Assembly: GCA_028383925.1 (NCBI GenBank)
Contig: JAOEWO010000008.1
Coordinates: 26,674 to 90,673, forward strand
DNA length: 64,000 nt
DNA from: Winogradskyella sp.
GTDB taxonomy: Bacteria; Bacteroidota; Bacteroidia; Flavobacteriales; Flavobacteriaceae
Reading direction: 5' to 3'
Of this stretch, positions 3,715 to 58,592 are shown piece after piece; within the stretch, counting starts at the first letter, position 1, and every line of letters starts with the position of its first letter. Position numbers and translations under genes: made by a program. The notes under the pieces are model-generated. The model did no database searches and was not told the origin of the DNA. It worked only from the letters and a program-made list of their open reading frames with translations.

Positions 3715-4893
3715 TTGCATGTGCCAGAACAAAACCATAACAACCCACAGATGAAAATTTTATTAGTTGGTGAATATAGTAGGCTGCATAATTCTTTGAA
3801 GGAAGGCTTAATGCAACTAAACCACGAGGTAACTATCGTGGCCAATGGTGATGGTTTTAAAAACTATGATGTAGATTATCTTATAAAAAAGAAATATAGT
3901 AGTGGTATTTTAAAACGTTTTAAAAACGCAGTTTATAAAGTTATTGGTATAGATTTAGAATCGTATTACACAAAAAAACAAATTAATGCTTTACAACCTA
4001 ATATTAGCAATTTTGATGTGGTACAGTTTATAAATGAAGCCCCTTTTGGTTGTACTGCGACTATTGAAAAGAGTATTTTTAAATTAATTTCTTCGTGGAA
4101 TAAAAACAGCTTTTTATTGTCTTGTGGCACAGATCATTTAAGTGTAAAATATGCATTAGATGGTAAATTTAGGTACTCTATCTTAACACCTTATTTAGAT
4201 GGTAAAGATACTACACACCAGAGTGCATACGGCTTAAAGTATGTGCAAAAAGATTTTAAAGCGCTACACGATTTTATTTTTAACTCGGTAAAAGGTGTTA
4301 TTGCATCAGATATAGATTATCATATACCATTACAAAACCATTCAAAATATTTAGGTTTAATACCTAACCCTATAAATACAGAAATATTAGAATTTGAACC
4401 TTTAAAAGCCTCAGACAAAATTATTATCTTTCATGGTATAAATTCAAAAAACTATTACAAAAAAGGGAATGATATTTTTGAAGACGCTTTATCAATTTTA
4501 AAAGCAAAACACGATGCTAAAATTGAAATATTAACCGTTAGAAGTCTTCCCTATAAAGCATATATAGCATCGTACAACAAAGCACATATTGTACTAGATC
4601 AGGTCTATGCATACGACCAAGGTTATAACGCATTAGAGGCTATGGCAAAGGGTAAAGTTGTATTTACAGGCGCCGAAAAAGAATGGCTCAATTATTATAA
4701 ACTCAAAGAAGATACGGTTGCTATAAATGCATTACCCAATGCAAAAGCTATTGCTCAAAAATTAGAATGGCTTGTTTTAAATCCAGATAAATTAATCGAA
4801 ATTTCTAACCAAGCAAAAGACTTTATAGACACGCACCACAATTACATAAAAAGTGCTGAGAAATATATAACAGCTTGGCAAACTAAAATTTAA
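3715..4893 (+). CDS. glycosyltransferase family 1-like
   Basis: 'MKILLVGEYSRLHNSLKEGL', 'YDQGYNALEAMAKGKVVFTG'; true start may be internal at MKILLVG. Confidence 0.75.
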   Translation: MHVPEQNHNNPQMKILLVGEYSRLHNSLKEGLMQLNHEVTIVANGDGFKNYDVDYLIKKKYSSGILKRFKNAVYKVIGIDLESYYTKKQINALQPNISNFDVVQFINEAPFGCTATIEKSIFKLISSWNKNSFLLSCGTDHLSVKYALDGKFRYSILTPYLDGKDTTHQSAYGLKYVQKDFKALHDFIFNSVKGVIASDIDYHIPLQNHSKYLGLIPNPINTEILEFEPLKASDKIIIFHGINSKNYYKKGNDIFEDALSILKAKHDAKIEILTVRSLPYKAYIASYNKAHIVLDQVYAYDQGYNALEAMAKGKVVFTGAEKEWLNYYKLKEDTVAINALPNAKAIAQKLEWLVLNPDKLIEISNQAKDFIDTHHNYIKSAEKYITAWQTKI

Positions 4894-6209
4894 GTTACTT
4901 CATTTTTAGCTTCATCTTTATCTTCAGTTTTAGCTCCATTTTTAGCGTAATAAGTGCTAACTACAAAAGCAACAATTATAAAATAAATGATGTAACGAAC
5001 AAAATGTGCTATAACAATCCCTTCTGTACCATACGATTGTATAAACAACTGCGAAAGCACAAAAAAGAGCACTAAAGAAATAATCTCAGTAATTACAAAA
5101 CTCTTAACCAAACGTTTGGCCAAAAACTGATGAGCTAAAACCAACGCAGACAGTCTTATAAAATCACCCAACAACTGCCATTTAAATAAAGGTTCCATGC
5201 CTTCAAATTCTGGATAAACAAAACTAATAATATAGTTTCTAACCAAGTAAACAATCACCATACCTAATGCAAAAATGGGCAATATGGTCTTATAGATATG
5301 AAATACTTCTGCTTTAAAATCACCTTTAGAATGAATACTCGCAAATTTTGGTATGACATATAACGAGAATAAACCGGTTGCAAATACCATATAATTTTTA
5401 GAAATAAACATTACGGCTGTCCAATTTCCGGCTTCACCTGTACTAATTTCGTCAGAGATAAGATTTCTTAATTCTATTTCTATAAAATTCAGTAAAAATG
5501 TAGACACAAATGACATTATAGTAAATGCCAACAACTGATTTTTATAAATAAACGAGAGTTTTAACTTTGATGGCTGCACGTACACTACTAATGTTTTACC
5601 AAAAACAATTAACAAAATAACAAGTTGAATAACAGGTGCAATAGCAATGGCAATTAAAGCACCATCTAAGTTAAAAGTTAACAACCCATAAAGTAATGCT
5701 GCGACACTTAACAGATAAGAAATGAGCTCTACTTTTGCGTATGTTTTATAATCAGAAAGGCCATTAACCACACCACTAAAAATACGATTTACAGCAATAA
5801 ACGGCACAATAATAGCCAGCACTTTTAAGATGTAATGGTACGACTCGTCTTTAAATATTTTTACAGACAACGGTTCTGCAAAAAAGAATAGAATACCACC
5901 AGAAACAAAACTCCCAATTAAAATAAATAAGGCTACGGAAGAAAATATTTTTTGAAGCTCGCTTTTATTATCTCTAAACTCTGATACATATTTTACAGCA
6001 CCATTAAAAACACCCAACGTAGATGTGCTGGTTAACATGGCTGTAAGGTTTCTTATTTGGCCCACTAAGGCATACCCAGAATCACCAACCATACTCGCTA
6101 ATAATCTCTGTACAAAAAAAGACACAACAAGTCTTATACTTATTACAAATGCATTTAGCGATGTAATTTTAAGCACAATATTACCCGTTAAAAATTTTGG
6201 AAGCCTCAC
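4890..6209 (-). CDS. polysaccharide/O-antigen flippase (Wzx-like)
   Basis: multi-TM protein with 'GDSGYALVGQIRNLTAMLTSTSTLGVFNGAVKYVSE' N-terminus. Confidence 0.8.
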   Translation of the reverse strand: MRLPKFLTGNIVLKITSLNAFVISIRLVVSFFVQRLLASMVGDSGYALVGQIRNLTAMLTSTSTLGVFNGAVKYVSEFRDNKSELQKIFSSVALFILIGSFVSGGILFFFAEPLSVKIFKDESYHYILKVLAIIVPFIAVNRIFSGVVNGLSDYKTYAKVELISYLLSVAALLYGLLTFNLDGALIAIAIAPVIQLVILLIVFGKTLVVYVQPSKLKLSFIYKNQLLAFTIMSFVSTFLLNFIEIELRNLISDEISTGEAGNWTAVMFISKNYMVFATGLFSLYVIPKFASIHSKGDFKAEVFHIYKTILPIFALGMVIVYLVRNYIISFVYPEFEGMEPLFKWQLLGDFIRLSALVLAHQFLAKRLVKSFVITEIISLVLFFVLSQLFIQSYGTEGIVIAHFVRYIIYFIIVAFVVSTYYAKNGAKTEDKDEAKNEVT

Positions 6210-6220
6210 GTATTTAAAGA

Positions 6221-7531
6221 TTAAGAGTCCTTGGTACTTTGGTCTTCTAAAACACCAAACAAAGAACTACCAAATATTAACAATATTAAACCAAAATACA
6301 TTACATAACTAAAACAATGGGCCATTACAGCACCTTTATAACCAAAATCATCTATTAAATAAATACTAGAAACATATAGCATTACAAACAAGAAAATCTC
6401 TAAAACTATAAAGTGGCTAAACATTTTCTTAGCTAAAAACTGGTATGCAATTACCATGGATAAAACACGAACAAAATCTCCTAATATTTGATATCCGAAT
6501 AAGGTTTCTACAGGTCTAAATTCTTCAGTAAATAGTAATGGTACTAAAAACGATCTTGTAAAATAAATGACTAGTAATAAAACACCAAATATGGGCATTA
6601 TCGTTTTGTAAAAACTAAATACTTCTTTTCTAAATGCTTTTTTAGTATTGATTTGTGTAAACCGTGGTAATATATAAAGTGCCATTAAAGAGTTAATAAA
6701 CATAAGGTAATAATTAGACACACGATTCATGGCTTCCCAGTAACCTGCTTCTTTAATACCAACTTCATCAATAATATAAGATCTAATAATTAGCGTTACT
6801 ATGGGTATTGCAATAGATGATACTAAGGCCATAATCATATACGGACTTAGTTTGTCTAAAACAGAAAAGCTAACATTAGATATTTTTACATAAGACACTA
6901 AATTTTTTCTATACAAAATACCAACAACCGAAATGAGTAGATTTAAAGTAGGTGTAATTACTATGGCAATAAGAGCACCATCTATATTTTCTTGTTTTAT
7001 GAGTACTAAAGTGACTAATAAGCCTAAAACTTGACCTATAATATTAATTATTAGAAGAATTTTGTGCTTAGAAAAACCATTCATTATAGAAAACACAAAC
7101 ATATTTAAAGCGTAAAATGGCAATACAGTAGCCAAAACCTTAATGATATAGGTGTAGTTATAATTTGATGTAAAGATTAAATTATTAATGAACTCTGCAT
7201 TATAATAGCATAAAAATGCTAGTAACATTGATGAGAAAAAGCCAAAATAGAAAACTGTAGATAAGGTCTTTGAAAGCTCTAAAGCGTTGTTTTTAGTTTC
7301 GTTAATAAACTTTACAACACCTTTATACAAACCTGCAATAGCTAGCGATTGTATGGCGCTCATAAAATTTCTTAAGTTACCTATAAGTGCCATGCCATAA
7401 GGCCCAATATAAAGTGCTATAAATTTAGAAATAAGAATACCTGTTACAATCTTAAGTGTAATATTAGCGTTATTAAGACGTGCTGCCTTAACTAAAACTT
7501 CGGTATTTATGTAGTGTATTAAACGTTTCAA
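6221..7531 (-). CDS. polysaccharide/O-antigen flippase (Wzx-like), tandem paralog
   Basis: same architecture as the neighbouring ORF ('GPYGMALIGNLRNFMSAIQSLAIAGLYKGVVKFINE'). Confidence 0.8.
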   Translation of the reverse strand: MKRLIHYINTEVLVKAARLNNANITLKIVTGILISKFIALYIGPYGMALIGNLRNFMSAIQSLAIAGLYKGVVKFINETKNNALELSKTLSTVFYFGFFSSMLLAFLCYYNAEFINNLIFTSNYNYTYIIKVLATVLPFYALNMFVFSIMNGFSKHKILLIINIIGQVLGLLVTLVLIKQENIDGALIAIVITPTLNLLISVVGILYRKNLVSYVKISNVSFSVLDKLSPYMIMALVSSIAIPIVTLIIRSYIIDEVGIKEAGYWEAMNRVSNYYLMFINSLMALYILPRFTQINTKKAFRKEVFSFYKTIMPIFGVLLLVIYFTRSFLVPLLFTEEFRPVETLFGYQILGDFVRVLSMVIAYQFLAKKMFSHFIVLEIFLFVMLYVSSIYLIDDFGYKGAVMAHCFSYVMYFGLILLIFGSSLFGVLEDQSTKDS

Positions 7532-8629
7532 TTAATAGTTATTTACAACTTTTATTACAGCTTGTACCTCTTTAATAGACATAACTGGGCTTATTGGCAA
7601 ACTTATAATTCTTTTATGAATCTTCTCTGTTATAGGAAGATTTAAGTGCGACAATAACGCTAAAGCCTTTTGTTTGTGAGGTGGTATTGGGTAATGTATT
7701 AACCACGCTACAGCATTAGCTTCTAAATATTTAATAAAACCGTCTCTATCTTCTACCTCTACAACAAAGGCATAAAACACATGCTTTTTAGAACCGTTAT
7801 ATTTTGGTAATTGTATTTTAGGATTTGTTATTTCTCTTAAATATGTTTTTGCAATAGCACTTCGTTTTTCATTATCTGCATCTAAATGTATGAGTTTAAT
7901 ATTTAAAAACGCAGCTTGCATATCGTCTAATCTGCTATTAACTCCAATAATTTCGTTATTGTATTTTTCTTTACTCCCGTAATTTCTAAGAAGTTTAATA
8001 GTCTGTTCTAAGTCTTTATGGTTTGTAGTTACAGCACCACCATCACCAAGAGCACCAAGGTTTTTACTAGGATAAAAGCTAAAAGCTGCAGCATGAGATA
8101 AATTACCAGCTTTGCCCAAACTTGTTTCTGCACCATGTGCCTGTGCAGCGTCTTCAAAAAGCAAAAGATTATGAGTATTAGAAAACTCAGCAAATGCTTC
8201 CATATCTGCTAACTGCCCATATAAATGCACTGCGATTATCGCTTTTATTTTTGGCGTAAACTGTTGTTTAACATTAGTAATAGAGAGCGTATAAGTATTC
8301 TTACAAGGCTCTACCAAAACAGGCTCTAAACCTGCATGAATAACAGAAAGTATTGTCGCAATAAAGGTGTTGGCTGGCACCATAACTTTATCCCCTTTTT
8401 TTAATTTACCTAAGTGTATGTAGCCTTTTAAAATAAGGGTTAATGCATCTAAACCGTTGGCTGTACCAATACAATAGTTGGCACCACAATAGTTAGCAAA
8501 AGCAGCTTCAAAATTTAATACATTTTTACCTAAAATAAAGTGTGAATCTTTTAAAGACTGTTTAAAAGCAGTTTCGTAATCTTTATGAAAACGTTTGTTA
8601 ATTTTATGAAGATCTAAAAATTTAATCAT
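7532..8629 (-). CDS. DegT/DnrJ/EryC1/StrS-family sugar aminotransferase (FdtB-like)
   Basis: 'FEDAAQAHGAE', 'FSFYPSKNLGALGDGGAV' PLP-Lys motif. Confidence 0.92.
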   Translation of the reverse strand: MIKFLDLHKINKRFHKDYETAFKQSLKDSHFILGKNVLNFEAAFANYCGANYCIGTANGLDALTLILKGYIHLGKLKKGDKVMVPANTFIATILSVIHAGLEPVLVEPCKNTYTLSITNVKQQFTPKIKAIIAVHLYGQLADMEAFAEFSNTHNLLLFEDAAQAHGAETSLGKAGNLSHAAAFSFYPSKNLGALGDGGAVTTNHKDLEQTIKLLRNYGSKEKYNNEIIGVNSRLDDMQAAFLNIKLIHLDADNEKRSAIAKTYLREITNPKIQLPKYNGSKKHVFYAFVVEVEDRDGFIKYLEANAVAWLIHYPIPPHKQKALALLSHLNLPITEKIHKRIISLPISPVMSIKEVQAVIKVVNNY

Positions 8630-10528: not shown

Positions 10529-11974
10529 TTAAAACTGAAAATAAATAAATTGTTGTTGTGTTTCGTAAAAGTAAAATATGGCAAAAATTAAACTGTAATA
10601 AAATATATAACGGTTGTGTTTTTTCCAATTTAACCCTAATTTTTCTAATGCATGATTATCGTTTCTAGCATTCCATTCTGTTAGTATTAAAAAAGAAATG
10701 ACAATAAGTACTAGTAATGCTTTGTTTTTATCACCCAAACGTGGTAACTCAAATAAAGATTCAGAAAAGATAGATGTTATATAATTAAACGCAGAATTTA
10801 GGTCATTAGCTCTAAAAAATAACCAAGCAAATGTGGTAAGAAAAAACGTTGTTAAAATAGAAGCTAAAGTCTTAAATTGTGGAATTGCAGTTTTACTCGT
10901 TGGGGTGTTTTTATACTTTTGGTTGGTATTGGTTAGCCATAAGGTTATAAATAGAAATGCGTGTATTATACCCCAAAAAATAAAAGTCCAATTGGCACCA
11001 TGCCACAAGGCACTTATAATAAAAACTATAACTATATTTCTAATAGTTTTAGATTTAGAACCTTTAGAACCACCTAGAGGTATGTATAAATAATCTCTAA
11101 ACCAATTGGTTAAAGAGATATGCCATCTGCCCCAAAACTCTGCTATATTTCTAGAAAAATAGGGGTAATTAAAATTCCGTTTTAAATTAAAACCAAATAA
11201 TCTAGAGGTCCCTATAGCAATATCTGTATAACCAGAAAAGTCGCAATAAATTTGAAAACTAAATAAAAAAGCACCCAATAATAATGCACTACCGTTATAA
11301 GCATCTGGATTAGCAAAAAAAGCATCGACAAAAATGGCACAATTATCTGCAATTACCATTTTTTTAAAGAGTCCCCAAAGTATCTGTCGCAAGCCATCTT
11401 TAACTTTTATAATCTCAAAATTTCGCTTTTTTAAAAATTGAGGTAAAAAATTAGAAGCCCTTTCTATTGGCCCAGCTACCAATTGCGGAAAAAAGCAAAT
11501 AAATGATGCAAATGCAATAAAATGGGTTGTGGGTTTTATTTTCTCTCTATAGACATCTATAGTATAACTCATAGTTTGAAACGTATAAAAGCTTATACCA
11601 ATAGGCAAAATTATATTAAGATAATTAAGATCTAACGGTTTACCAAAAAGTAGAAAGGCATCGTTAAAATTCTCGATAAAGAAATTATAATACTTAAAAA
11701 AACCAAGAATACCCAAATTAAGCAAAATACTTAACCCTAATAAAATAGCTTTAAACTTTTGTTGTTGTTGCTTTACAATAGCCAAACCAATACTGTAATC
11801 TATTAGAGTACTGGTAATTATAAGGCTTAAAAAACGCCAGTCCCACCAGGCATAAAATACATAGCTAGCACAAATTAATAAGACATTCTGAAATTTTAAT
11901 GTCTTAAATACAAACCAGTATAGTATAAATACAAGGGGAAGAAAAATTGCAAAATCTATAGAATTAAATAGCAT
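10529..11974 (-). CDS. MBOAT-family O-acyltransferase (AlgI-like)
   Basis: 'FFPQLVAGPIERA', 'NFNYPYFSRNIAEFWGRWHISLTNWFRDYLYIPLGG', 'ALWHGANWTF'. Confidence 0.95.
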   Translation of the reverse strand: MLFNSIDFAIFLPLVFILYWFVFKTLKFQNVLLICASYVFYAWWDWRFLSLIITSTLIDYSIGLAIVKQQQQKFKAILLGLSILLNLGILGFFKYYNFFIENFNDAFLLFGKPLDLNYLNIILPIGISFYTFQTMSYTIDVYREKIKPTTHFIAFASFICFFPQLVAGPIERASNFLPQFLKKRNFEIIKVKDGLRQILWGLFKKMVIADNCAIFVDAFFANPDAYNGSALLLGAFLFSFQIYCDFSGYTDIAIGTSRLFGFNLKRNFNYPYFSRNIAEFWGRWHISLTNWFRDYLYIPLGGSKGSKSKTIRNIVIVFIISALWHGANWTFIFWGIIHAFLFITLWLTNTNQKYKNTPTSKTAIPQFKTLASILTTFFLTTFAWLFFRANDLNSAFNYITSIFSESLFELPRLGDKNKALLVLIVISFLILTEWNARNDNHALEKLGLNWKKHNRYIFYYSLIFAIFYFYETQQQFIYFQF

Positions 11975-12064: not shown

Positions 12065-13546
12065 TTAATCGGTAATAAATGCCTTAAAAATCGCCTTATT
12101 ATTTTTATCAATGACTTTATAAATACCCAAGGGAGCTCCTTCATTAACGGATAAGAAACTAGCATCACTTTCTATATTTTTTAATAAGGATGTATCTTCA
12201 CTTAAAGCAGAAAAAACAGTTCTAAAAAGATTAACACTCGTTTGTATATCTGCATTATACATGGCGTTATTGTCTGGCCATTTAATTGCTAAAAGCGACG
12301 AAAACATAGAAAATGTATCTGCTCTATTTTTTGGTTTTATATGCGATTGCGCAGAATAATCATAACCTACAAAACCACCATGGTCCGCAACAATAATAAT
12401 GAGTGCGTTTGCATCATTAGAGTTAATTAACGCCAACGTGTTTTTTAACCAAGAGTTGGCGTCTGCTAAACGGTCTAAATATTTTTGGCGCTCTAGTGCT
12501 GCACCTTCAGATGCAGATTGATATGTGGTAATATGACCAGGACTAATACGTTCTATAAAATAAAAGTGTTTACCACTTAAATTGGTCTTTATTTGTGATT
12601 TTAAATCTTTAAGCACATCTCTCTTAAAGTCGAAACCAGAAGACACTACAGATAAATCTGAATAATCTATAGTACTAAAATCATACCCCATTTTTGGTCT
12701 GTTGGCTAACAAATATGAATTCTCTAAAATTAAAGATGTTCTATAACCGTTATTTTTGAGAATAGATAAAACAGGATTTTCAGAAACAATAATATCTCTA
12801 GCAAACAAAAGTTCTGAACCCACATTTAGGTTACGGTTATAGTAGTGATGCTTCATAGAAAACATAGAACTATTAGAGCTTAAAGTAGAATAATAATTAC
12901 TTCTAAAATTAGGATACAACTTAAAATCATTATCTAATAGAAATGTGTTAAAGTCTGAATTGTCTTTATTGTAATTGCCTTGTCCTATTTCGGACAAACC
13001 AATATAACCGTCTGGTTGAATAACATAAATATTGGGTGTGTTTTTAAATATAACCGACTCTATATGGTCGGGTTGTTTTTGCCAATCATTACTGTAATTA
13101 AAATAAGATACAACGGTTGGCACCAAAAATAACAGACCAATACCTGCTAATAAAAACTGAAATTTAATTATTTTTTTTAGATGCTTATAAAGCAAAATAC
13201 CTAATACAACAGCCAAAATAGCGACTAAAACTAGTATTTTCTTTTTAAAACCATACACACCATAAACAAGTAAACTTAAAAAAACCGAGACGTTAAGCAC
13301 GGCTAAAATCCTATTGTAATAGTCCTTAAAAAAAGCTATTTTTTTAGTAAGTAAGGCGAAACACAAAAACATTAAAATAGGCAAAGCCACAAACAGCAAA
13401 AGCAAAAAACCAAACTGACCCCAAGATAAAAGTAACGTATGGTTAGACGTGTATAAATAAATTAAGGGATATAAACCTGCAGCTAAAGCGGCCATAAAAG
13501 CCAAACCCATTAGAGGCTTGGTATCAAATTTATGCTCTGTTTTCAA
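12065..13546 (-). CDS. membrane-anchored sulfatase/alkaline-phosphatase-superfamily protein
   Basis: N-terminal TM helices; 'NIYVIQPDGYIG', 'TLSSNSSMFSMKHHYY', 'LIIIVADHGGFVGYDY'. Confidence 0.8.
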   Translation of the reverse strand: MKTEHKFDTKPLMGLAFMAALAAGLYPLIYLYTSNHTLLLSWGQFGFLLLLFVALPILMFLCFALLTKKIAFFKDYYNRILAVLNVSVFLSLLVYGVYGFKKKILVLVAILAVVLGILLYKHLKKIIKFQFLLAGIGLLFLVPTVVSYFNYSNDWQKQPDHIESVIFKNTPNIYVIQPDGYIGLSEIGQGNYNKDNSDFNTFLLDNDFKLYPNFRSNYYSTLSSNSSMFSMKHHYYNRNLNVGSELLFARDIIVSENPVLSILKNNGYRTSLILENSYLLANRPKMGYDFSTIDYSDLSVVSSGFDFKRDVLKDLKSQIKTNLSGKHFYFIERISPGHITTYQSASEGAALERQKYLDRLADANSWLKNTLALINSNDANALIIIVADHGGFVGYDYSAQSHIKPKNRADTFSMFSSLLAIKWPDNNAMYNADIQTSVNLFRTVFSALSEDTSLLKNIESDASFLSVNEGAPLGIYKVIDKNNKAIFKAFITD

Positions 13547-14933
13547 AATTTAAGTTTTTAATTTCTAATAAATACATAGTACGCTCAGCATCTTTAATAT
13601 GAATTTTTTCTTTTATATTGAATAATTCACTGTAGGCCATTTCAAAATTTTCGATTGTATAAAAGCCAAAGTAATCTTCAAAATCTGCTTTAGATTTTAA
13701 TAAGCGTTGTACCCAAGAGTCGTTACGCTTAGGAAATTCAATAATGAGATATTTTGAAAATGAAGCGAAAAACTTAGCTGATTCTTTAAAAGGGACGTTT
13801 CCAGATAAAGACATGTGGTGTATAACCGCCAATGCCAAAGTAACATCTGGTGCATAAGCCGCTATACGCTGCAAAAAAGAAGCACGCTCGGTACTATTTA
13901 AACCTATAGCCGCAGACGGATTTAACACATCTAACACAAAAGGTAACATTTTTTGGTCTTTATTTAATTTTGTTGTTTTGTAATTAAAATCTACCGCATT
14001 ATTATCTATATCGCAAACTAAGGCTTCTTTATAGTCGTAGTTTATTTGTCTTACAAACGTACCGTCGTTACCACCAATATCTATTAAACTTGAAGGCTTA
14101 ATCTTAGAAATCCAATCATTAATAACAATATCTTTTGTCTTAAAAGCAACATCTGTGTAATTGGTTTTATTGTAATAATTACCCCATTCTGAAGCTTCTT
14201 TAAGTTCTAATTTTTTTATAAATTCATAAAGGCTCTTTACGATATTTAACTGACCTTTTTTAGATAAACTAGCCGTCTTAGTTTTACCTTCATAATCTTC
14301 GCTATGCTTGTCTTCTAATTTTGCTAAAAGGTGAATGTTAGTATACAGTAATGGACTTAACTTTGTTTTAGAAGGTAACATGGTACTTACCATTTTTACA
14401 GGCACCCCATCTATAAAATTACGCAATAATTTTAATTGGTGTGCACCATGGTAACTTGCCAAAAGTAAAGGCCCTAAAAAATGTGTTATAAATTGTTTAT
14501 ACGCACGCCATGGGGTGTTTTCTTTATAAAAATCGAAAGATAACGTATCTATAAATACCGCTTTTCCTTTGTGAAATGTAACATTAAATGCTGATGCATC
14601 TTTTAATGAAAAACCATGTTCTAAACTATATTTCTGAAGCTTTAAAGTTAATAAAGCCGCTTCTTTATACATGTTAAAACTCCACTCGTAAGGGTAAGTT
14701 ATAAAAGGAATTTGCTCTGGCTCTATAATGATTTCGTTAGCCGTTCTAGAAATTTCTTTATGGCTAATAAGCAATTTGTTTTTAATTAAATTATCGAAAA
14801 AACCAGATGTTTTTAAAGCATCGTACTGATTAAAATAAACAGGATTAATAACCCTTTTTATACTATTATTCTCAATAAAAATATAACCCGAAGGATCTCT
14901 AAACGAAGATGAATGAGCGGTTTTTAATTGCAC
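13530..14933 (-). CDS. SAM-dependent methyltransferase with N-terminal kinase-like region (NoeA-related type)
   Basis: 'SSLIDIGGNDGTFVRQ' SAM motif; N-terminal 'LKDASAFNVTFHKGKAVFIDTLSF' resembles a kinase/APH catalytic loop. Confidence 0.7.
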   Translation of the reverse strand: MQLKTAHSSSFRDPSGYIFIENNSIKRVINPVYFNQYDALKTSGFFDNLIKNKLLISHKEISRTANEIIIEPEQIPFITYPYEWSFNMYKEAALLTLKLQKYSLEHGFSLKDASAFNVTFHKGKAVFIDTLSFDFYKENTPWRAYKQFITHFLGPLLLASYHGAHQLKLLRNFIDGVPVKMVSTMLPSKTKLSPLLYTNIHLLAKLEDKHSEDYEGKTKTASLSKKGQLNIVKSLYEFIKKLELKEASEWGNYYNKTNYTDVAFKTKDIVINDWISKIKPSSLIDIGGNDGTFVRQINYDYKEALVCDIDNNAVDFNYKTTKLNKDQKMLPFVLDVLNPSAAIGLNSTERASFLQRIAAYAPDVTLALAVIHHMSLSGNVPFKESAKFFASFSKYLIIEFPKRNDSWVQRLLKSKADFEDYFGFYTIENFEMAYSELFNIKEKIHIKDAERTMYLLEIKNLNFENRA

Positions 14934-14934
14934 T

Positions 14935-15132
14935 TTAGTTTTTATTTTCTACATCAGAATCTTTAATCTCTATGTCATCAAAAACATCGTCTTTATCTTC
15001 TTTTTGTAAACCTAAAAACAATTTTATTTTATACATAACATTTTTTGAAAACAATACAACACCTGCAACAGCTGCTATTATGGCCTGGATAATCATGGCA
15101 CCTAAACCTGGATCGAAATAAAGAAAATGCAT
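14935..15132 (-). CDS. small single-TM protein ('YFDPGLGAMIIQAIIAAVAG')
   Basis: 65-aa ORF abutting the methyltransferase, hydrophobic helix then acidic tail. Confidence 0.65.
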   Translation of the reverse strand: MHFLYFDPGLGAMIIQAIIAAVAGVVLFSKNVMYKIKLFLGLQKEDKDDVFDDIEIKDSDVENKN

Positions 15133-15238: not shown

Positions 15239-16765
15239 TTACTCTTCTAAAGTCTTAAAGACTATATTACCGTGACCATCTATAAATTCATAGATACCCG
15301 TTGGTGCACCTTTTCTAATAACAAGGTAGCTTTTATCTTCTTGCAAATTGTTTAAGTAGCTTTTATCATCTGCTAAATACGAAAACAAGACTCTAAATAA
15401 ATTTACAGAAGACTTTAAATCTTTATGAAAATCTGTATAACTATCATCTGGCCATTTTATTGCTAATACCGAAGCAAACATAGATTGAATAATTAAAGGA
15501 TCTGTTTGCTTGGTTTGGCTTTGTTTCATATAATCTAAACCGACATAACCACCATGGTCAGCTGCTAAAATTATTAACCCATTTGGATCTTCTTTTGCTA
15601 TAAATAAAATAAGTTTTTTTAGCCAACTATTAGCCAACTATTAGCCAACTATTAGCCAACTATTAGCCAATTTAAGCCGTTCTACATACAAACTCCGCTC
15701 ATTTTCTATAGACGTAGCACTATTATAATGTGTTACAATATGGCTAGGTAACATAGACTCTATAAAGAAAAAATTAGTAGTCTTTTTATTTTGTTTTATA
15801 GCTGCTTTTGTATCTGCTAATAGGTCTTTTTCTATATTAAATCCTCTTGAGATAAAAGAGACTTCATCTAACGAAATATTACAATTATCAAAATCTATAC
15901 GAGGTCTATTGGCTAATAAATAAGGGACTTGCAACGTTAAAAATGTAGTGTATTGGTTATGTTTAAGGGTTTTTAAAACGGGGTTACTACTCACAATTTC
16001 ATCTCTACTATTGTGAGACGGATTAATACCCAACGTGCTATTGCCATAGTAATGATGTTTCATATTAAACATAGAACTGTTAGAGCTAAGCGTAGACGCG
16101 TAGTTACTTCTATAATTATTATAAGAAGTAAACCCTTGTTTAGACAGAAAAGTTTCAAAACTACTATTACCGTAATTATAATTAGAGTTTTCTAATTGCG
16201 AAAAATTAGCATAACCATCTGGCTGAATAACATAAATATTTGGTGTCTTTTTAAAAGTAATCGTTTCAATGGCGTCTGGTTGTTTAGCCCATGCTTTAGA
16301 GTACATAATTTCTCTATACACATCTGGCATTAATTTGGGTAACACTAGTGCCATTAAAATTAACTGAAGTATAATAATTTTATATATGTATTTTGAAAAA
16401 ATAGACCCTAAAATTAAACCCAACATTAGAGCTATTATCATTTTTATAATATCAAAACCATATAGCGTTATTATAATAAGTAACAAAAAACAAGTACTGT
16501 TACACATTGAAAGTACGTAAGGTTTAAGCTTTACAAAGGGCTTAAAACTTCTTATAATAAATGCAGAAGAGTAATAAAATATAATTGGTAAACAGCTATA
16601 GAAAAACACAAAAAATAAAAATTGTGATTTTGAATTTATAATAGCATAATTTTTATCGTAATAGTAAAGTAGCGGATATAATCCTGAAGCCAACATAGCC
16701 CATACAGGATGTATATGGGTGTTCTTAAAAAGTTTTAAAATATAGCGCCTTCGGGTTTGTAACAT
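15239..16765 (-). pseudogene. sulfatase-like paralog of 12065..13546, interrupted by in-frame TAA TAG generated by an 11-bp tandem repeat
   Basis: ORFs 15641..16765 and 15239..15637 lie in the same frame, separated only by stop codons at 15638-15643; together they align over the length of the paralog. Confidence 0.85.
15621..15670. repeat. 11-bp tandem repeat (agccaactatt)x4 + 6 nt
   Basis: direct reading of the sequence. Confidence 0.98.
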
Positions 16766-57174: not shown

Positions 57175-57245
57175 AAATTATATCGAGACGTATTGATAAG
57201 TTCTCGATACAATTTCGATAAAAATCGAAATCACTCGAACTGACA
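57175..57245. repeat. palindrome-rich intergenic element between trpF and trpB
   Basis: tatcgag...ctcgata and atttcgat-aaaa-atcgaaat inverted repeats. Confidence 0.55.
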
Positions 57246-58526: not shown

Positions 58527-58530
58527 AAAT

Positions 58531-58592
58531 AGAGAATAGAGAATAGAGAATAGAGAATAGAGAATAGAGAATAGAGAATAGAGAATAGAGAA
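58531..58592. repeat. heptanucleotide tandem repeat (AGAGAAT)x8 + 6 nt
   Basis: direct reading. Confidence 0.98.

Follow-up and report, generated by a model that had tools for sequence, protein, structure and literature searches.

The interrupted gene and its setting

The window, by which we mean the whole 64,000-nucleotide stretch analysed here, comes from a single draft genome of this Winogradskyella species (101 contigs, 83% complete) and contains a polysaccharide cluster, a setting proposed by an earlier sequence-only reading and borne out by the presence of flippases, glycosyltransferases, an MBOAT acyltransferase and an aminotransferase. All genes considered in this section lie on the minus strand. 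Two Wzx-type flippases and a DegT/DnrJ aminotransferase occupy positions 4890-8629, an MBOAT (AlgI-type) O-acyltransferase positions 10529-11974, and an intact, array-free paralog of the gene studied here positions 12065-13546 (493 aa, sharing about 40-46% identity with the orthologs described below, Pfam Sulfatase PF00884 at E 4.7e-9). Next come a conserved gene at 13530-14933, with no significant Pfam hit, whose product reads as SAM-methyltransferase-like by its DIGGNDG motif, and a conserved 65-aa small membrane protein at 14935-15132, assigned to no Pfam family and possibly a partner subunit of these enzymes. The gene at 15239-16765 encodes a predicted inner-membrane protein of the alkaline-phosphatase superfamily and is interrupted, its ortholog in relatives being intact at about 496 aa. 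Because the cluster holds flippases, glycosyltransferases, an acyltransferase and an aminotransferase, the role of the interrupted gene is likely to be the modification of a surface glycan or lipid. Decay of the cluster as a whole was considered and rejected, as the neighbouring genes are intact and syntenic.

The interruption is caused by a 52-bp perfect array at 15619-15670, which on the minus strand consists of (TTGGCTAATAG)x4 + 8 nt (TTGGCTAA) and is scored by TRF at 104, with 100% matches, a period of 11 and 4.7 copies; the tandem repeat noticed inside the coding sequence is thus confirmed. The minus-strand reading across it gives LANSWLIVG, then TAA TAG in frame, then LANSWLKKLI, dividing the gene into two ORFs of the same frame. 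The upstream ORF (15641-16765, 374 aa) encodes five putative membrane helices and roughly half the periplasmic domain and ends in LANSWLIVG, whereas the downstream ORF (15239-15637, 132 aa), whose first TTG lies within the array, holds the ADHGG motif and the C-terminal strands behind the stops. Loss of ADHGG, as originally claimed, therefore applies to the truncated product; the motif is still encoded in the genome, in the downstream ORF only. The paralog at 12065 carries the single-copy equivalent, DANSWLKN, without interruption, again as proposed. Stop-codon reassignment was rejected, since TAA and TAG both act as stops at this site and table 11 gives normal readings for the rest of the window's genes.

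Relatives and structural family

Seven syntenic orthologs in Winogradskyella and Lacinutrix-type genomes are all open (491-497 aa, 54-68% identical over the N-terminal part), and in each of them the neighbourhood comprises BipA, the 65-aa membrane protein and the methyltransferase-like protein. At the array site all seven have one unit's worth of sequence, the nearest reading KAANTWLKEL, which answers the question of whether relatives carry a single unit. A survey of 69 genomes of the genus recovered 30 family members in 19 genomes, with internal stops in the present one only; on this distribution the family is accessory, with sets of two to four paralogs in some genomes. A scan of viral contigs found no other allele of the array locus. 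As a separate observation, the membrane-enzyme family expands locally and its copy number differs between species: at L025:3033-10432 four paralogs lie close together, with a methyltransferase-like gene between the first and the second.

The single unit in every ortholog, a gene broken by the array alone and the draft state of the assembly would be compatible with an assembly or consensus error at what is truly a one-unit locus. However, a single short read of ordinary length can span 52 bp, the array is perfect and its flanks are clean and unique, and the neighbouring genes are intact; moreover, assemblers tend to collapse repeats rather than expand them. We consider such an error improbable. 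With one draft genome to go by, the four-unit form might also be a minority allele.

To place the protein, an intact ortholog was modelled with AlphaFold from 24 sequences (pLDDT 88, pTM 0.87, as against pLDDT 61 in a 10-sequence run). The model features five long N-terminal helices, called membrane-spanning by their length and make-up, followed by a periplasmic alkaline-phosphatase-superfamily domain. Its best Foldseek matches in the PDB are PbgA/YejM, EptC, EptA, MCR-1 and LtaS (probability 1.00, E 1e-8 to 1e-6), with sulfatases ranking slightly behind the YejM/Ept/LtaS group; identities among these matches are 10-17% and TM-scores about 0.4 by query length. A PDB sequence search returned a single weak sulfatase match (E 0.08), and an NCBIfam search nothing useful. 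The predicted architecture of five N-terminal membrane helices and a periplasmic alkaline-phosphatase-type domain is shared with YejM/PbgA, EptA/EptC/MCR-1 and LtaS, from which the present genes differ in occurring as tandem paralog sets beside a methyltransferase-like and a small membrane protein. With formylglycine sulfatases (S1) the family shares the superfamily fold, and the paralog is matched by the Pfam Sulfatase model, but the protein has five putative membrane helices and the C/S-x-P-x-R motif is absent at the active-site position; the one match to it, in a paralog, is a chance occurrence at residue 100, in the membrane-helix region. Since that motif is missing, the label sulfatase used by the sequence-only reading is valid only as a superfamily name, and judged from motif and modelled fold the gene product is not a formylglycine sulfatase.

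Candidate metal or nucleophile residues in the model are the family-conserved D180, S225 (at a helix start), D389 and H390. The truncated product keeps D180 and S225; because it loses D389 and H390, the Asp-His of ADHGG, together with the last strands, it should be inactive. Function could in principle be retained if both ORFs were made, by termination-reinitiation at the array TTG or by stop readthrough, and worked as a split protein: the C half is conserved, and the downstream ORF is in frame with a TTG start directly after TAA TAG. Against this, the two stops are consecutive, the break falls within a long catalytic-domain helix of the model (residues 350-378), by-eye inspection saw no upstream initiation signal, the downstream start owes its very existence to the array, and none of the relatives is split. 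A working split protein is thus very improbable indeed.

Unit number and reading frame

Reading the gene in silico with one to ten units shows that only n=1 is open and that n=2 to 10 all end at the same TAA, the two-unit version being already stopped at the same codon as the four-unit one. As 11 is not divisible by 3, translation passes through all three phases of the repeat within 33 bp and cannot avoid a stop. Two elements of the sequence-only reading hold up under this arithmetic: a TAA comes with each added unit, and with four units the frame is restored but TAA TAG remains. The possible contingency locus that it suggested is not supported in that form, since ON/OFF toggling would be possible only through full contraction to one unit. 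In the simple-sequence contingency loci of Haemophilus, Neisseria and Campylobacter, as here, slippage at a perfect repeat in a surface-glycan gene decides translation, but such tracts leave the frame open at many lengths (n modulo 3, each third being ON), whereas here changes in unit number do not give ON and OFF states at several lengths. With all lengths above one copy OFF, the repeat is unfit as a normal on/off counter and does not represent a tract designed for toggling, even though it is a tandem repeat inside a gene. Nor is it kept in orthologs: the seven syntenic ones, besides being single-unit, also lack the 7-bp seed described below. The array is not a classical contingency tract.

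We further scanned 100 stretches and the window (1.88 Mb, 65% of the genome) for comparable repeats. This sample contains only four perfect arrays longer than 50 bp, and the array at 15619-15670 is the only one of period 11 with at least three full copies. The remaining three are 7-bp repeats, two of them outside any ORF of at least 80 aa and the third touching only a frame of 83 codons that is unlikely to be a gene. The scanned 65% of the genome holds no other perfect array of at least 25 bp inside a long ORF, and hence the examined part contains no set of coding contingency repeats. Direct repeats of 7-10 bp at a distance of 11 occur at 174 sites, of which this one alone has grown to at least three full copies, and the two-unit pattern has no second occurrence anywhere in the genome. 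The array is not due to chance.

These data bear directly on whether a phase-variable switch is in use here, with one-unit (ON) and multi-unit (OFF) cells mixed and both kept by selection, for example that exerted on surface glycans by phages or grazers. The polysaccharide-cluster setting, the good preservation of both gene halves, the perfect array units and the precedent of the pneumococcal capsule genes would all suit such a switch. However, one-unit slippage among multi-unit alleles would never toggle the gene, the seed and the repeat are missing in relatives, and no second long-ORF array was found in the scanned part of the genome, so that we hold a switch in use to be unlikely.

Origin and age of the four-unit allele

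The one-unit sequence implied by the flanks contains a 7-bp direct repeat of TTGGCTA at distance 11 (TTGGCTA-ATAG-TTGGCTA). Identity at lag 11 is 7/7 at this seed, as against 2-4/7 in the orthologs and 2/7 in the paralog, which makes the seed lineage-specific, although the duplication itself could have produced part of the 7/7 identity. We propose that the codons for LANSWL in this lineage happened to hold the 7-bp repeat 11 bp apart, that the TTGGCTA microhomology probably seeded a first 11-bp tandem duplication, and that later replication slippage would have brought the array to four units. Translation would then end at TAA TAG, once the membrane part and roughly half the periplasmic domain have been made but ahead of the metal-site Asp-His, leaving the product, a YejM/EptA/LtaS-like cell-envelope enzyme, presumably inactive. 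The allele would be reversible in principle, as the gene would be open again once every extra unit was lost.

The half behind the stops shows no detectable relaxation of constraint by identity, dN/dS or a relative-rate test of low power. Identity to the nearest ortholog is 72% in the C half and 68% in the N half, and pairwise dN/dS is 0.12 and 0.18, respectively (NG86, with dS near saturation). Window-only and relative-only changes stand at 10:6 in the C half and 34:26 in the N half (Fisher p 0.78, of low power with 16 informative changes in the C half). The earlier remark that both halves are well preserved, suggesting a recent event, agrees with these values. When neutral drift was simulated for the C half, 0.05 substitutions per site were alone enough to change about 13 amino acids, and the chance that no new stop arose was 39%. 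Changes specific to the window number only 10 in that half over the whole branch, for which dS/2 is about 0.7, pointing to a break that would be young relative to the species split.

Taken with the frame arithmetic and the intact syntenic orthologs, these results favour, with a probability of roughly three in four, a recent loss-of-function allele that arose by replication slippage, can in principle revert and is not a dedicated switch. The closest known parallel is found in Streptococcus pneumoniae, where reversible spontaneous sequence duplications switch off the capsule genes cap3A, cap8E and tts, as described in PMC4243769, PMC4022640 and PMC2995930, the first two citing Waite 2001 and 2003 for the duplications. 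In those accounts, as here, a tandem duplication within one ORF of a surface-polysaccharide locus disrupts the gene, which would be restored if the extra copies were lost, and no long simple-sequence tract was there beforehand; by analogy, the array fits a microhomology-seeded slippage duplication of this kind. The cases differ in that pneumococcal switching was observed in culture, according to those papers, whereas the four 11-bp units are known from the sequence of one draft genome. It is their reversion that qualifies the pneumococcal duplications as phase variation.

Any switching at the present locus would be strongly asymmetric, because reversion requires the loss of all extra units and the one-unit gene would be a weak slippage substrate. 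One could imagine on this basis an asymmetric switch whose stop lies within the 11-bp unit itself, so that extra units mean OFF and complete contraction alone means ON, which would hold a surface-glycan enzyme of a marine flavobacterium in an OFF state that works like a ratchet and is seldom reset; this we regard as unlikely. Our literature search found no paper linking Winogradskyella with phase variation. Should one-unit and four-unit cells prove to mix in populations, marine Bacteroidota would join the bacteria that vary surface glycans through spontaneous duplications. Read as a slippage-born loss-of-function allele, the locus would offer a clean example, outside the well-studied pathogens, of a chance 7-bp coding microhomology breaking a surface-glycan gene, together with a simple rule for telling a contingency tract from a one-off duplication, namely which unit numbers keep the frame open.

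Some further repeats were observed in the same material. The favoured repeat period in this genome is 7 bp: a perfect array, (AATAGAG)x9.3, lies between trpB and trpA at window positions 58528-58592, and two more long, perfect heptamer arrays, (TTTTGCA)x12.3 at L096:15712-15797 and (AGTTTAG)x8 at L119:17246-17301, lie outside clear genes. The AATAGAG heptamer is also arrayed in two other genomes of the genus (L139 and L140), in unrelated places, and would therefore arise repeatedly or be independently seeded. Finally, a 45-bp stretch between trpF and trpB (window 57200-57244) is about 89% identical to L140:2365-2409, in another genome of the genus and a different setting, and is possibly a small dispersed repeat.
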